Shown here: positions 48,011 to 54,620 of the stretch, piece by piece | Layout: the number at the start of each line of letters is the position of its first letter | How positions within the stretch are numbered: position 1 is the stretch's first letter | Position numbers and translations under genes: made by a program | DNA from: Deltaproteobacteria bacterium | GTDB lineage: Bacteria; Desulfobacterota; Deferrimicrobia; Deferrimicrobiales; Deferrimicrobiaceae | Assembly (NCBI GenBank): GCA_016218975.1 | Contig: JACRCO010000001.1 | Location: 1 to 64,000, forward strand | DNA length: 64,000 nucleotides | Reading direction: 5' to 3' | Notes under the pieces: model-generated | Told to the model about the DNA's origin: nothing | The model's input: the letters and a program-made list of their open reading frames with translations, nothing else | Database searches by the model: none

Positions 48011-48833
48011 CACTTATGGCGGGATGCAGTTCGTTGCAGGCAGCATCTTGCGGAACGAGGCCCACGGGGAGCTCTTCTACCGCCTGGAAGTTTCCATCCC
48101 GGGACCGGTGGAATTCACCCCCGGCCAGTTCGCCATGGTTTCCGGCTGGCCCGGGAACGATCCGCTTCTTCCGAGGCCGCTTGCGATCTTCCGGTCCGGC
48201 ATCGCGCCGAAAGGGAAATTCTCCGTCGACTTTGTTTACAAGGTCGTCGGCAGGGGGACCGCGCTGCTTTCAGGCATGCATCCAGGGGAAAGCCTCTCGC
48301 TCACGATCCCGTTGGGCAGGGGGTTCGACCTGAAGAAGGGTGGCCGCACTTACTGGCTCGTAGGCGGAGGCGTCGGCTTTTCTTCGGTCTTCCCGGCTGC
48401 GGTCGCGCTCGCGCGCAACAAGGCGGAATTCGAGATGTTCCTGGGCGGCCGCACGCGCCGGCAGCTCCCGCCGAGGGAGCTCACGCCCGCCGGGTCTTCG
48501 CCCGGACATATCCACCTGTGCACGGAAGACGGCACCGCCGGGTTTCATGGAAGAGTCACCGACGCCGTCCGTGAGCGGATGGCGTCCCTCTCCGGCGACG
48601 CGGCTTCACGGCTGACGATCCTTGCGTGCGGCCCGCGCGACATGCTCAAGGAGCTTGCGCGCGCGGCGGCCGAACGCGGCACGGAAATGCAGGCGGCGCT
48701 GGAAAACCACATGGCATGCGGGTTCGGCGTCTGCTGGGGCTGCGTCGTCGCGCTGCGCGAGGGGGAAGGCGTCGCCTACCGCCGGGTCTGCAAGGATGGG
48801 CCGGTGTTCGACTACCGGGAGGTCGTATGGTGA
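48003..48833 (+). CDS. pyrK: Dihydroorotate dehydrogenase B electron-transfer subunit
   Basis: 276 aa. Ferredoxin-reductase-like protein with an FAD domain (LLPRPLAIFRSG), an NAD-binding region (LVGGGVGFSSVFPAAVALA), and a C-terminal 2Fe-2S site. The cluster motif is CGFGVCWGCVVALREGE and a fourth Cys in RRVCKDGPVF. PyrK passes electrons from PyrD to NAD or another carrier. It overlaps rimI by 8 bases and pyrD by 7 bases, so the pair is translationally coupled. Confidence 0.92.
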   Translation: MHSTYGGMQFVAGSILRNEAHGELFYRLEVSIPGPVEFTPGQFAMVSGWPGNDPLLPRPLAIFRSGIAPKGKFSVDFVYKVVGRGTALLSGMHPGESLSLTIPLGRGFDLKKGGRTYWLVGGGVGFSSVFPAAVALARNKAEFEMFLGGRTRRQLPPRELTPAGSSPGHIHLCTEDGTAGFHGRVTDAVRERMASLSGDAASRLTILACGPRDMLKELARAAAERGTEMQAALENHMACGFGVCWGCVVALREGEGVAYRRVCKDGPVFDYREVVW

Positions 48834-49744
48834 AACCGGACCTGTCCGTATCCATTGGGTCGCTCAGGGTGAAAAATCCCGTGATGAGCGCGTCGGGCAC
48901 CTTCGGATACGGCCTCGAATACTCCCCTTTTTACGACATCTCGCGGCTCGGGGCTATCGTGGTGAAGGGCTTGTCCCTCGCGCCGACCGCCGGGAACCCG
49001 CCCGGCCGCATCGTCGAAACGTCCTCCGGCATGCTGAACGCCATCGGGCTCCAGAACATAGGCGTCGAGAGGTTCGTGAAGGACGTCGTTCCGCGGCTCG
49101 AAGACGCCGGGGCCACGTTCGTCGCGAACATCTACGGGAAGACGCCCGAGGAATACGAAGAAGTTTCCCGGCGTCTTTCGGAGGTATCCTCGCTTGCCGC
49201 AATCGAAGTCAACGCTTCCTGTCCCAACGTGAAGGAGGGAGGGATGGCGTTCGGTTCCACACCGGAGGGCATATCGCGCCTCACCGGGCGGGTTCGGGAG
49301 GCCACGGGGAAGCCGCTCTGGGTGAAGCTCAGCCCCAACGTGGCGGATATCGCCTCCATCGCGGCAGCGGCCGAGGCTTCCGGGGCGGACGCCGTCTCTC
49401 TCATAAATACGATCATCGGGATGGCGGTGGACCACAGGACCCGCAAGACCAAACTGGCGAACGTGACAGGCGGGCTGTCGGGGCCGGCGATAAAGCCCGT
49501 GGCGCTGCGGATGGTGTGGGAGACGTGCAAGAGAGTGAAGATCCCCGTTATAGGGATCGGGGGGATACAAACCGCCGCGGATGCGTTGGAATTCCTCCTG
49601 GTGGGTGCTTCGGCGGTCCAGGTCGGGACGGCGAACTTCCGGAACCCGAAAGCGTGCATGGAGATCCTGGAAGGGATCGAGACGTTCCTGCGCGAGGAGC
49701 GGCTGGCCGGTATCGGTGAGTACCGGGGGACGCTGGCCAGGTAG
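48827..49744 (+). CDS. pyrD: Dihydroorotate dehydrogenase B catalytic subunit
   Basis: 305 aa. FMN TIM-barrel enzyme of pyrimidine synthesis. N-terminal NPVMSASGTFGYGLEYS, the active-site cysteine in IEVNASCPNVKEGG (class 1B), SLINTIIGMAVDHRTRK, TGGLSGPAIKPVALRMVWE and GIGGIQTAADALEFLLVGASAVQVGTAN. ATG 48827 has GGGAGG upstream, 7 bases before the pyrK stop. It ends the pyrK-pyrD pair; an unrelated promoter follows at 49768. Confidence 0.96.
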   Translation: MVKPDLSVSIGSLRVKNPVMSASGTFGYGLEYSPFYDISRLGAIVVKGLSLAPTAGNPPGRIVETSSGMLNAIGLQNIGVERFVKDVVPRLEDAGATFVANIYGKTPEEYEEVSRRLSEVSSLAAIEVNASCPNVKEGGMAFGSTPEGISRLTGRVREATGKPLWVKLSPNVADIASIAAAAEASGADAVSLINTIIGMAVDHRTRKTKLANVTGGLSGPAIKPVALRMVWETCKRVKIPVIGIGGIQTAADALEFLLVGASAVQVGTANFRNPKACMEILEGIETFLREERLAGIGEYRGTLAR

Positions 49745-49767: not shown

Positions 49768-49797
49768 TTGTCGGCGCTTTCCTAATCCTTGTATAAT
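49768..49797 (+). promoter_or_regulatory. Sigma-70 promoter ahead of rimP leader / small RNA
   Basis: TATAAT at 49792-49797 is a perfect -10, preceded by TTGTCG at 49768-49773 with 18 bp spacing. Transcription would begin near 49804, 60 bases after pyrD. Confidence 0.7.
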
Positions 49798-49803
49798 CAG
49801 GTT

Positions 49804-49908
49804 TCGGGCTGAAGCTGACGGTTTGCAGGGCGGAATGTATGGGCGCCCGCAGCTTGGCCAGAATGGTGTGATGTATTATTGAAAGTGGGCTTAGCCCACT
49901 TTTTTTTT
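49804..49908 (+). ncRNA. Predicted small RNA or attenuated leader ahead of rimP
   Basis: The span from the predicted start near 49804 to the terminator at 49908 is about 105 nt and has no good open frame. It can fold: GCTG and CAGC enclose GGGCG/CGCCC around 49812-49853. Then an unpaired stretch leads to the 9-bp terminator. Because rimP starts only 121 bases beyond, this could be a free small RNA or a leader that attenuates the rimP-nusA-infB operon. It does not match the tRNA, SRP or 6S forms I can recognise. Confidence 0.5.
49882..49908 (+). terminator. Rho-independent terminator upstream of rimP
   Basis: AAAGTGGGC (49882-49890) and GCCCACTTT (49894-49902) form a 9-bp stem with a TTA loop, followed by a run of T to 49908. 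The stem and tail are oriented for plus-strand transcription. It sits between the promoter at 49768 and the rimP coding region, so full-length transcripts of rimP-nusA need read-through, an anti-terminator, or another promoter in the repeats. Confidence 0.85.
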
Positions 49909-49909
49909 C

Positions 49910-50014
49910 GCAGCCATGGAGGGCTGCGTGCCGCGGAGGCCATGGAGGGCCGGGAGCGGCCTGCAGCCATGGAGGGCTGCGTGCCTCGGAGGCCATGGAG
50001 GGCCGGGAGAGGCC
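49910..50014. repeat. Two tandem 53-bp hairpin repeats upstream of rimP
   Basis: Two near-identical tandem units (49910-49962 and 49963-50014), each with two hairpins: GCAGCC-ATGGAG-GGCTGC (49910-49927; 49963-49980) and GGCC-ATGGAG-GGCC (49938-49951; 49991-50004). Each loop is ATGGAG, matching the CCATGGA(T/C) hairpins at 215-275 and 26430-26486. The block lies between the terminator and the rimP GTG, where it would be transcribed in the 5' untranslated region. Confidence 0.75.
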
Positions 50015-50028
50015 GATGTGAGTCCTTC

Positions 50029-50517
50029 GTGAAAACGGACATCGAAAAGATAGAGGCCCTGGTCGCCGAGGTGGCCGGGGAAGAATTGGTGGAAGTCTTC
50101 GACCTCAACGTCATGAGGGAAGGCCCGCGGACGGTGATCCGCGTCTTTCTCGACCGCGAGGGAGGGATCCGGATGGGCGACTGCGAATCGTTCAGCCGCA
50201 AGATGAGCGCGGTGCTCGACGTGAACGACCCGATGCCGGGTCCATACGTCCTCGAGGTTTCATCGCCGGGTCTCGACAGGAAGCTGGTCAAGCCGGCACA
50301 TTTCGCCGCGGCGGAAGGAAAGCGCCTGCGCGTGGCGCTGACGGAGCCGATCGAAGGCAGCAGGAACTACACGGGGACGCTCGTGAGGGCGAACGAGGAC
50401 GGATTCGAACTCGAGCGGGAAGGAAAGACCTTCCTGTTTCCTTACACCGCCGTGCGCAAGGCGAACCTGGACATTTCCCAGGAGGAACTTTTCGGGAAGG
50501 GAAAGAAAAAGAGATGA
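50029..50517 (+). CDS. rimP: Ribosome maturation factor RimP
   Basis: 162 aa from the GTG at 50029. RimP is needed for 30S subunit maturation. Visible blocks: KIEALVAEVAGEELVEVFDLNV, EGPRTVIRVFLDREGGI, the conserved YVLEVSSPGLDRKLVKPAHF, and the C-terminal AVRKANLD. A longer frame from TTG 49879 would translate the hairpin repeats and the terminator, so it is rejected. It overlaps nusA by 4 bases. Confidence 0.93.
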   Translation: MKTDIEKIEALVAEVAGEELVEVFDLNVMREGPRTVIRVFLDREGGIRMGDCESFSRKMSAVLDVNDPMPGPYVLEVSSPGLDRKLVKPAHFAAAEGKRLRVALTEPIEGSRNYTGTLVRANEDGFELEREGKTFLFPYTAVRKANLDISQEELFGKGKKKR

Positions 50518-51797
50518 TCCTGGATATCGGGCAGATCATTACGCAGCTGGGCAAGGAAAAGGGGATAGACAAGACCGTCATCGTCGACGCGATAAAGGAA
50601 GCGCTCGAGATCGCCGCCCGGAAGAAGTACGGCTTGAACAAGAAGCTGGAAGCCACCTACGACCCGGAGACAGGGGAATTCGAGATCCTCGAGTTCCGGA
50701 CCGTCGTGGAGAGCGTAAAGGACCCGGAAGCGGAAATTTCCCTCACAGACGCCCGCGAATACGACCCGGAAGCCGCCTACGACGACAACATCGGCTTCCG
50801 GATGAGCACGCGCGACCTCGGCCGAATAGCTGCGCAGACCGCCCGCCAGATCATCATGCAGAAGGTGAAGGACGCCGAGCGGGAGGTCATCTATAACGAG
50901 TTCATCGGCCGCAAAAGCGAGATCATAAACGGGATCGTGCAGCGCTACGAGAGGGACTGCCTGGTCATCGACCTCGGCAAGACCGAGGCTGTCATGCCGC
51001 TTTCGGAGCAGATACCGCGGGAGCGGTACCGCCAGGGCGACCGGATCCGGGCGTACATAAAAGACGTTTCCAAAACTCCAAGGGGACCGGAGATACTACT
51101 TTCGCGCTCCGACCCGCGGGTGATCCTCAAGCTGTTCGAACAGGAGGTCCCCGAGGTGTACGAAGGGGTCGTTTCCATCCTGAGCGTAGCGCGAGAGCCC
51201 GGATTCCGCACGAAGATCGCCGTCCGTTCCAAGGACCGCGACGTGGACCCGGTGGGGGCATGCGTGGGTATGAAGGGATCCCGCGTGCAGAGCGTGGTCC
51301 AGGAGCTGCGCGGCGAGCGGATCGACATCATCGCGTGGGACGAAGACCCCGCGAAGTTCGTCTGCAACGCGCTTCAGCCGGCGGAAATCATCCGTGTCCT
51401 TGTCAACGAGTCGGAAAAGAGCATGGAAGTGATCGTTCCGGAGGAGCAGCTCCTGCTGGCGATCGGAAAGAAGGGGCAGAACGTAAAACTGGCCTCGAAG
51501 CTGGTGGGGTGGCACATCGAGGTCCGGGCGGAAGGCCAGGTCGAGGACGCGCTGAAGCGGGCCGAGGGGCTCTTCGCGCCGAAGAAGGCCCCGGAAGGGG
51601 ACGCGCCGGCAGCCCCGCAGACAGAGGCTGGTACCGCGCCGGATTCGGGAGAGGGTGCCGGCGAAACCCCGCAAGCGGAAACGGCGCCTGCGGAAACGGC
51701 GCCTGCGGAGGCCGGACCGTCACCGGATCCGCCCGAAGCGGCGGCGTCTACCGCCGGGGAGGCCGAGGCGGAAAAGACGGGGGGCGATGCCTCCTGA
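50514..51797 (+). CDS. nusA: Transcription termination/antitermination protein NusA
   Basis: 427 aa. N-terminal domain (residues 1-130), S1 domain (NGIVQRYERDCLVIDLGKTEAVMPL), and two KH domains (VDPVGACVGMKGSRVQSVVQEL and LLLAIGKKGQNVKLASKL). The C-terminal 70 residues are Ala/Pro/Glu-rich (AETAPAETAPAEAGP repeats) and lack the acidic AR1/AR2 repeats of E. coli. NusA binds RNA polymerase and modulates pausing and termination. It overlaps rimP by 4 bases and ylxR by 11. Confidence 0.97.
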   Translation: MILDIGQIITQLGKEKGIDKTVIVDAIKEALEIAARKKYGLNKKLEATYDPETGEFEILEFRTVVESVKDPEAEISLTDAREYDPEAAYDDNIGFRMSTRDLGRIAAQTARQIIMQKVKDAEREVIYNEFIGRKSEIINGIVQRYERDCLVIDLGKTEAVMPLSEQIPRERYRQGDRIRAYIKDVSKTPRGPEILLSRSDPRVILKLFEQEVPEVYEGVVSILSVAREPGFRTKIAVRSKDRDVDPVGACVGMKGSRVQSVVQELRGERIDIIAWDEDPAKFVCNALQPAEIIRVLVNESEKSMEVIVPEEQLLLAIGKKGQNVKLASKLVGWHIEVRAEGQVEDALKRAEGLFAPKKAPEGDAPAAPQTEAGTAPDSGEGAGETPQAETAPAETAPAEAGPSPDPPEAAASTAGEAEAEKTGGDAS

Positions 51798-52089
51798 GGC
51801 GGTCGGTACCCCGCAACGGACGTGCGTCCAATGCGGGTGCGCGGGTGAGAAGCGGAACCTGTTGAGGATCGCTGGACGGCCGGGGGCGGCCTGGGACCCC
51901 GACCCGGAAGGAGTGAGGCCGGGACGGGGAATATACCTCTGCCGGAAAGCGGAGTGCATCGAAGGTTTCGCACGGCGGATCGGAACTCCCAAAGGGGCAG
52001 CGCGGTGGAAGATGGGAGCTTCCGGGACGGCATTGGGAGAGAAAATCACCGCCTGGTGGCGGGAGAAGCAAAAGGGCAGGGAGGGTTGA
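51787..52089 (+). CDS. YlxR/DUF448 family RNA-binding protein
   Basis: 100 aa from ATG 51787, which overlaps the end of nusA by 11 bases. [21 protein letters not shown] and [19 protein letters not shown] are typical of the YlxR family, which contains paired cysteines and a basic surface. Members bind RNA and are linked to the nusA-infB operon; one has been linked to RNase P in Gram-positive bacteria. The stop overlaps the infB ATG (TGATG). Confidence 0.85.
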
Positions 52090-54620
52090 TGGAGAAAGTC
52101 AGGGTCCGCGATCTGGCAAGGGACCTCGGTATGGAGACGAGTCGGGAAATTCTCCTGTTCCTCGAACGGATCGGGCACAAGGGGAAATCGGCATCCAGCA
52201 ACATCGAGGGCGACGTCATCGACCGGGTGAAGAATCACTTCCGGAAATCCGCACCCCCCCCTCCTCCGAAGCAAACGCTCGTAGTGACGCGGGCCGACGG
52301 GACGCTGGAGAGGCGCTCCAGCAAGGTGGTCCTGCGCCGCGGCGCACCCGTCGTCGAAAAGGCGCCCGTTCCCGAAGAACCTGCGGCGCCCGCAGCCGGT
52401 CTTCCCGCGCCGGCTCATCCTGCGTCGACCGCAGCACCCGCCCATCCGGCTGCGACCGTTGAACCGGCACCCGGAGAGGCAGCTGAAGCCGCCGGCACAC
52501 CGGCGACTGAAGTCGCCGCTCCCGTTGCGGAAGCGCCCGTTCCCGAAGCGGAAGCCGCTCCTGCGGCGGATGCGGCGGTCAGGGTCGTGGAGAAGACTCC
52601 CGCGGAGAAAGCCGCCGAGGAACGGAAGGAAAAGGAAAAGAAGTGGAAGAAGGCCAAGCCCCACGAGAAGAAGGTGCAGAAGGGGGTCCTCAAGAGGACG
52701 ATCATACAGGAGATCGTCGAGGAGCCCGAGCCCCCCAAGGCTGCGGAAAAGCCGGCCGCCGAAGCGGAACCCGTGGTTGTCCGCCAATTCCAGCCGACGC
52801 GGGCGCAGAAAAGGAGGGGAAAACCCGTCAGGGAGAAAAAAGCCCCCTCCACCCTCCCGCCGAAGGCAAGCAAGCGGGTGTTCAAGATCGAGGAAGTCAT
52901 CACCGTCGGGGATCTCGCCCACCGAATGGGGATCAAGGCCTCCGACGTCATCAAGAAGCTGATCGAAATGGGAATGCCGACGACGCTCAACCAGCTTCTC
53001 GACGCCGACACGGCCAAGCTCCTCGCACAGGAGTACGGATATGAAGTGGAGAACGTCGCTCCCGAGGTGGAAGGGTTGATCGACCAGGAGACGGACCGCG
53101 AGGAGGACCTCGTCGCACGCCCGCCGGTGGTCACCATCATGGGGCACGTGGACCACGGCAAGACCACGCTCCTGGACGCGATCCGCAGCAGCGACGTCAT
53201 CTCCACGGAAGCCGGCGGGATCACGCAGCACATCGGCGCGTACGAGGTGGAGCACGGGGCTCGGAAACTGGTCCTCCTGGACACTCCGGGGCACGAGGCG
53301 TTCACGTCGATGCGCGCACGGGGCGCGTCGGTCACCGATATCGTCGTGCTGGTCGTCGCCGCCGACGACGGGGTGATGCCGCAGACCGTCGAGGCGATCG
53401 ACCACGCCAAGGCCGCCGTGGTTCCCATTGTCGTCGCCGTGAACAAGATCGACAAGCCGGGGGCGCAGCCCGACCGCATCCGGCAGCAGCTCTCGGAGCA
53501 CGGGCTGGTGCCCGAGGAGTGGGGTGGCCAGACGCTGTACGCCAACATCTCCGCGAAACGGAAGACGGGCATCGAGGGCCTGCTCGAGTTGGTCCTCCTT
53601 CAGGCCGATATCCTCGAGCTCAAGGCCAATCCCGTGAAGATGGCGCGGGGGACGGTCATCGAGTCGCGCCTGGAAAAGGGGCGGGGACCGGTTGCCACCG
53701 TCCTTGTCCAGGAGGGGACCCTGCATGTCGGCGACGCCATCGTGACAGGGACCCATTTCGGGAGAGTCCGCGCGCTGTCCAACCACAAGGGGAAGCGGTT
53801 CCTGGAGGTCCCGCCCGGAACCCCGGCGGAGATCCAGGGGCTGGACGGCCTCCCCGGCGCGGGGCAGAAGTTCGCGGTGCTGAAGGACGAGCGGACGGCG
53901 CGCCAGATCGCGATGCACCGCCAGGAAAAAGACCGGGAGAAAACGGTGGCCCGGCCCCGGTTCAGCCTTGAAGATCTCCACCGCCAGATAGAGGCGGGAG
54001 ACCTCAAGGAGCTGAACATCGTCATCAAGGCGGACGTCCAGGGGTCGATGGAGGCGCTCCAGTTCTCTCTCGGTAAGCTTTCCGGCGAGAAGGTGAAGGT
54101 TGTCGTCATCCACTCCGGCGTAGGGGGGATCTCGGAATCCGACGTCATGCTCGCCTCGGCCTCCACCGCCGTTGTCATCGGTTTCAACGTCCGCCCGGAG
54201 TCCAAGGCGGCGGACCTCGCCGAGCGGGAGAGGGTGGACGTTCGTCTCTACACCGTCATCTACGACGTCGTGGAGGACATCAAGAAGGCCATGGAAGGAC
54301 TGCTTTCGCCGACCTTCCGCGAGGCATCCCAGGGCCGCGCCGAAGTCCGCAACACCTTCCACATTTCCAAGATCGGGACGATCGCCGGCTGCTACGTCCT
54401 GTCCGGCAAAATCACCCGGAACTCCAACATCCGCCTCCTGCGGGACAGCGTGGTGGTGTACGAAGGGAAGCTGTCGTCGCTCAAGCGTTTCAAGGACGAT
54501 GTGCGCGAGGTTCTCGAAGGGTACGAGTGCGGCGTCGGCATCGAGGGGTACAACGACATCCAGGTCGGCGACCAGATCGAGGCCTTCGTTATGGAGAAGG
54601 TCGCGGGAACGCTCGCGTAG
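52089..54620 (+). CDS. infB: Translation initiation factor IF-2
   Basis: 843 aa from ATG 52089. N-terminal IF2_N motif ([20 protein letters not shown]), a long Pro/Ala/Glu-rich linker (about 60-270), a second IF2_N-like domain, and the GTPase domain with GHVDHGKTT (near residue 352), [15 protein letters not shown] and NKIDKPGA. Domains II-IV follow, with SDVMLASAS and [13 protein letters not shown] near the end. IF-2 places initiator tRNA on the ribosome. It is 48 bases from the DUF503 gene. Confidence 0.98.

Follow-up and report, generated by a model that had tools for sequence, protein, structure and literature searches.

In the window, by which we mean the whole 64-kb stretch of DNA analysed, the rimP-nusA-infB genes are preceded by pyrD, and the interval between pyrD and rimP is occupied by a promoter, a hairpin resembling the attC sites of integrons, an intrinsic terminator, and a repeat array:

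48830-49744, forward strand: pyrD (dihydroorotate dehydrogenase), the upstream neighbour (NCBIfam PRK07259 / pyrD_sub1)
49768-49797, forward strand: sigma-70-type promoter, -35 TTGTCG and -10 TATAAT, with a predicted start at ~49804
49802-49863, forward strand: attC-like hairpin at the predicted RNA 5' end, with an L''/L' stem and two extrahelical bases
49881-49908, forward strand: rimP-leader intrinsic terminator, stem GAAAGTGGGC/GCCCACTTTT, loop TTA, T9
49910-50012, forward strand: four REP-like hairpins (GCCATGGAGGGC at 49913, 49939, 49966, and 49992), recognized by genome pattern count
50029-50517, forward strand: rimP (best E=3e-35 with the RimP models of NCBIfam, under the model cut-offs)
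50514-51797, forward strand: nusA (NCBIfam TIGR01953, over the cut-off)
52086-54620, forward strand: infB (IF-2; NCBIfam TIGR00487, over the cut-off)

The original prediction, of a TATAAT with a plausible -35, followed ~105 bases later by a strong terminator with a T run, with no open frame between the two and with rimP downstream, agrees with these features, whereas the attC-like hairpin and the REP-like array formed no part of it. The -10 (49792-49797) is separated by a spacer of 18 from the TTGTCG at 49768, the two together showing 10/12 consensus matches, and both the -10 and a CTTGT-type -35 recur in relatives, as judged from the leader comparison. The terminator consists of GAAAGTGGGC-TTA-GCCCACTTTT (49881-49903) and T9 (49900-49908), with a pairing probability of 0.99-1.0 in the leader fold, and the start codon of rimP is the GTG at 50029. 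The one reading frame found in between, an ATG frame of 15 codons (49835-49882), is not conserved; it was considered as a leader peptide and rejected, being absent from a congener (G002).

Within one genome, both motifs occur at chance frequency, as an 11-kb scan returned one promoter versus 1.1 expected from shuffled sequence and seven terminators versus 9.8, and as the fold of the 106-nt leader has a z of -1.6, so single-genome evidence alone is not above chance, and the case rests on comparison between genomes. No antiterminator, in the sense of a stable competitor to the terminator, was seen in the leader fold. Searches of Rfam, at gathering cut-offs and at E<=10, returned no leader family and weak chance matches only, which weighs little, since the published rimP-leader motif is short and an Rfam match is not defining for it.

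The terminator upstream of rimP in related genomes

The set compared comprised 22 genomes in all, represented by NusA-anchored loci of the GTDB family and, for G002, by a contig from a DNA search. The genomes are mostly metagenome assemblies; besides the window's own genome (G000) and G002, the same genus is represented by G001 and G003. In all the family genomes covering the region upstream of rimP (22/22), GTGGGC and GCCCAC enclose a loop that is short and variable, and precisely nine T follow; the conservation of the terminator in relatives, set beforehand as one of the points on which the prediction could fall, thus held. The length of homopolymers is usually variable; here, the T run remains at nine in all 22 genomes, while the loop between the stem arms varies. 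Between G000 and G002, the terminator stem and the T9 are identical in the alignment of the rimP leaders. As to the distance from the promoter, 13-23 nt separate the end of the -10 from the terminator block in the 15 other family genomes with a placeable -10, and 81 nt separate them in G000 and G002 only; the promoter-to-terminator stretch is common to these two, and the 105-nt spacing is specific to the window's genus. In a broader species collection, the GGGC...GCCC-T motif is present at 40 of the 71 NusA loci searched, a few of which belong to the family already compared.

The terminator could instead merely end the pyrD transcript, the promoter being separate or a chance match, with no attenuation involved. 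Such a reading would agree with the position of pyrD directly upstream in the window's family and with the chance-level frequency of both motifs noted above; we nevertheless consider it quite improbable. The promoter is located between pyrD and the terminator, at a close spacing conserved in the family, and in the species collection pyrD is found upstream of the motif at only 7 of the 40 loci. At the other 33, the motif stays with rimP-nusA without pyrD, and thus the terminator belongs to rimP, its assignment to pyrD being rejected by synteny. Likewise, the rimP-leader has been described in most bacterial groups (PMC2965389).

This published rimP-leader possesses a conserved GGGc...gCCC stem, and NusA has been proposed as its regulator (Naville and Gautheret, 2010; PMC2965389). 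The unit in the window is positioned directly upstream of rimP-nusA-infB and possesses the conserved terminator stem GGGC...GCCC and the U run. Judging from these sequence features, identification of the 5' control stretch of rimP-nusA-infB as the known rimP-leader attenuator is well supported and, of the two possibilities originally put forward, a free RNA or control by read-through, it is the latter that finds good support, the terminator being that of a widespread leader (PMC2965389).

In relatives, TTTTTTTTTCGATG is found directly before rimP, and the REP-like array has apparently been inserted between the terminator and the start region of rimP. The REP-like pattern is represented by ~100 genome copies with at most one mismatch, versus 29 for the reversed pattern. 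These hairpins (GCC ATGGA[GCT] GGC) are dispersed as pairs or arrays, in the window at 49913-50003 and also at 216, 261, 26430, and 26471, and they are common in genus g9. Their ATGGA loops resemble, in sequence, CsrA/RsmA sites, and a weak match to Rfam RsmW was noted. In G002 and G003, the same gap contains other repeat arrays (GAGCGGCAGGCGTTGAGCATGGCAAAATGCCGC...), suggesting that it collects repeats in this genus.

The attC-like hairpin in the rimP leader

The attC-like hairpin represents a genus-specific extra ~65 nt between the predicted transcription start and the terminator, an insertion seen in two genomes only (G000 and G002); in G001 and G003, the assembly is interrupted at this place by contig ends. 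When the leader core (query 46-99) was used in a DNA search, it matched sites in other genomes, outside rimP leaders, that possess the R''-L''-L'-R' architecture and are found beside small cassette-like genes. The training set of a covariance model, R1, comprised 14 attC sites of the array type, all from relatives and including one from G003:C103 with intact core boxes; it contained no g1 rimP, phoU, or other 5'-leader copy. The only significant match to R1 in the 64-kb window is at 49796-49873 (41.7 bits, E=2.4e-9); model R2, whose training set includes the window copy, matches 49802-49863. The hairpin (-22.7 kcal/mol) possesses the inverted L''/L' arms and the extrahelical bases of an attC site. 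Its core boxes, R'' (RYYYAAC) at 4/7 and R' (GTTRRRY) at 5/7, are at chance level, its neighbours are pyrD and rimP, and no cassette or array is found next to it. A comparison of leaders for covarying stems had been suggested along with the original prediction, and between the rimP leaders of G000 and G002 one double change, from C-G to U-A, was found, and the changes in the outer stem keep or improve pairing, with the exception of one G-C to G-U.

Integrons are not foreign to this family. Integron integrases scored over the cut-off in 10 of the 24 genomes, the window's own genome included, and a pattern search recognized sites of attC-like architecture in 7 of the 24, with none for the reversed pattern. 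Within the family, R1 detected many solo sites, a kind known as SALIN (PMC12690207), as well as arrays (G021:C8, G000:C69). The window's own genome apparently possesses an integron, with the attC array (G000:C69:1974-7975) and the integrase (G000:C80:304-1242) on different contigs. A literature search on attC in untranslated regions or on integrons of Deferrimicrobium found nothing directly relevant.

With this in mind, two readings of the locus must be considered. One is a functional, trans-acting small RNA of ~105 nt made at the leader, as would agree with a promoter-to-terminator unit with stable folds, from which read-through may be low. However, the 105-nt RNA is conserved as a unit in G000 and G002 only, other genera would yield an RNA of ~35-45 nt without the hairpin, and the extra ~65 nt that they lack is an inserted attC-like hairpin, a member of a family of leader hairpins, with no small RNA conserved at the site. 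The free RNA of the original prediction is thus unsupported, and its chances are the slimmest. The other reading is that of a live attC site, with the integrase still recombining at the hairpin or with pyrD acting as a cassette, for which the strong attC-model score and the integrase gene and array elsewhere in the same genome could be cited. Its core boxes are, however, degenerate by comparison with those of array sites (5-7/7, mostly 6-7), no cassette gene adjoins it, and the order of pyrD, promoter, and hairpin is the same in G002, making live recombination at this site very improbable.

A family of hairpins in 5' leaders

The rimP copy is one of many. Solo attC-like hairpins form a multi-copy family in the 5' leaders of housekeeping genes, all sense-oriented and mostly found directly after a -10. 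The genes downstream include rimP, phoU, tatA, xseB, hemC, cysE, phhB, and genes for a metal-dependent hydrolase, a rubrerythrin-like protein, a ferredoxin, and a 2-hydroxyacid dehydrogenase, among others. Of 18 independent elements, 11 carry a hexamer that matches TATAAT in at least five of six positions and terminates 2-10 nt ahead of the hairpin, versus a mean of 1.07 and a maximum of 5 when upstream sequence was shuffled (2000 trials); at array sites, no -10 of this quality was found within 26 nt (0/14). The phoU copy is an exception: it is flanked by pstB on one side and phoU on the other, no clear promoter accompanies it, and thus placement at the transcription start is not universal. 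In a structure-guided alignment of the 18 leader elements, the stems were found to covary strongly (43 double changes versus 14.5 shuffled, 0/500), with both extrahelical positions kept across the copies, while the R'' and R' boxes have been lost, being near chance level in leader copies, that of the window included. The sequence likeness to local cassette attC sites takes in the flanks of the loop as well as the two L arms. Outside the family, no leader-type element was found in 118 genomes of the phylum, and the matches found in three of these are all cassette-like. Apparent tandem pairs of attC-like hairpins are present in the leaders of phhB, cysE, the rubrerythrin-like gene, and tatA of G013.

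Multiple examples of gain and loss are now apparent. One example is tatA, whose leader contains the element in G003 and G013 but not in G000 or the other genomes compared, with flanks (G000 versus G003) fitting insertion right after the -10. Another example is phoU, with the element in G001, G002, and G003, absent in G000 and others, while of the hemC, cysE, and phhB orthologues compared, only those of G000 have it intact. Remnants are also present: the mbl element is full in G002 and half deleted in G001, and the xseB element is full in G002 and decayed in G003 and G012. Such empty and decayed orthologous sites show insertion and loss of the hairpins, lineage by lineage. The 2-hydroxyacid dehydrogenase element is common to two genera (G002; G012 and G017), and in a third (G006) a similar hairpin with its flanks is found, with the dehydrogenase gene not directly next to it; either this element predates the others, or its site has been targeted repeatedly. 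In G003, a ~170-nt palindromic repeat (ends GCCCGCATTTATnACCATGG) is found within the phoU leader hairpin (G003:C37 near 1600-1790), and apparently the same repeat, in the opposite orientation, at the remnant of the hemC leader hairpin (G003:C6:1-110), recalling mobile elements that target attC sites.

What these hairpins represent may be read in more than one way. The main rival to a function is neutral persistence, i.e., attC-like hairpins being functionless debris tolerated in leaders. The half-deleted remnants at mbl and xseB and the rapid turnover would be expected from this, while the stem pairing retained across copies, the exclusively sense orientation, and the constrained place relative to the -10 would not, and we hold neutral debris to be unlikely, if not strongly so. 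Less likely still is a family of RNA regulators of independent origin (one-protein regulon), resembling attC through reverse ancestry or convergence. The strong covariation, the conserved bulges, the uniform orientation, and the fixed place near the start site of many unrelated genes are all compatible with such a family, but a sequence likeness to local cassette attC sites that includes the loop flanks and each L arm, the restriction of leader-type matches to this family in a search of 118 phylum genomes, and the scattered distribution of copies, with empty sites in congeners, argue against it.

A probable lengthened attenuator and known systems

In the reading that we prefer, the locus is probably a NusA-type rimP attenuator lengthened by a solo attC-derived hairpin that is either domesticated or decaying. 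Transcription would start near 49804 and meet the conserved terminator ending at 49908, with read-through setting the expression of rimP-nusA-infB. By analogy, negative feedback appears most likely, because NusA, judging from other bacteria, would stimulate termination at the leader terminator. NusA attenuation of its own gene has been documented in Bacillus subtilis (PMC12288461), for Streptococcus agalactiae NusA feedback has been proposed, termination in its rimP operon having been mapped to 31 nt past the start (PMC4448216), and NusA feedback in Escherichia coli is long known, according to the work cited in PMC2965389. The hairpin would shift the terminator from ~+35-45 to ~+105 and place a stable structure at the 5' end of the RNA, likely stabilizing this end of the mRNA and likely allowing NusA longer to engage ahead of the terminator, and thus it may affect either mRNA stability or the attenuator. 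An effect on expression is plausible, as attC stems in mRNA have been reported to hinder ribosomes in cassette arrays. The hairpin may have arisen from attC through off-target action of an integrase, even if descent could run from attC to leader or in reverse.

The recombination sites of integrons are regarded as handles on the DNA by which gene cassettes are moved. We tentatively suggest, as a possibility somewhat short of an even chance, that in this family attC-derived hairpins have become mobile, domesticated elements of 5' leaders, entering housekeeping genes in the sense orientation just after a promoter, losing their recombination boxes, and persisting as structures in the RNA that govern the stability of the mRNA or, at rimP-nusA-infB, the working of the NusA attenuator. 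If so, parts of integrons would have been turned into gene-expression elements at the transcription starts of core genes. The locus also presents a natural experiment on NusA autoregulation, with the same terminator at ~+40 in sister genera and at ~+105 here.

Compared with known systems, the unit is like the rimP-leader (PMC2965389) in its place upstream of rimP-nusA-infB, its GGGc...gCCC stem with a U run, and its fold without an antiterminator, and unlike it in possessing an attC-like hairpin before the terminator and a REP-like array after, the leader being ~105 nt long versus ~35-45 nt in sister genera. With the NusA attenuators of B. subtilis (PMC12288461) and S. agalactiae (PMC4448216) it shares the operon and a terminator in the 5' leader, and the 31-nt termination in the latter resembles the short leaders of sister genera; it differs from both in the extra hairpin, the role of NusA here being proposed by analogy. 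The leader hairpins are like integron attC sites and SALIN (PMC12690207) in the L''/L' stem, the two extrahelical bases, the high covariance-model score, and the presence of both arrays and an integrase within their family, and unlike them in their degenerate R''/R', their lack of a cassette gene, and their recurrence in 5' leaders in the sense orientation only. Off-target insertions by integrases at attG sites (Loot, 2024, as cited in PMC12444791; PMC10127599) offer a possible route of attC sequences out of the integron; as related in these sources, such cases concern whole cassettes at many loci, while here only hairpins of ~60 nt are found, at gene starts.
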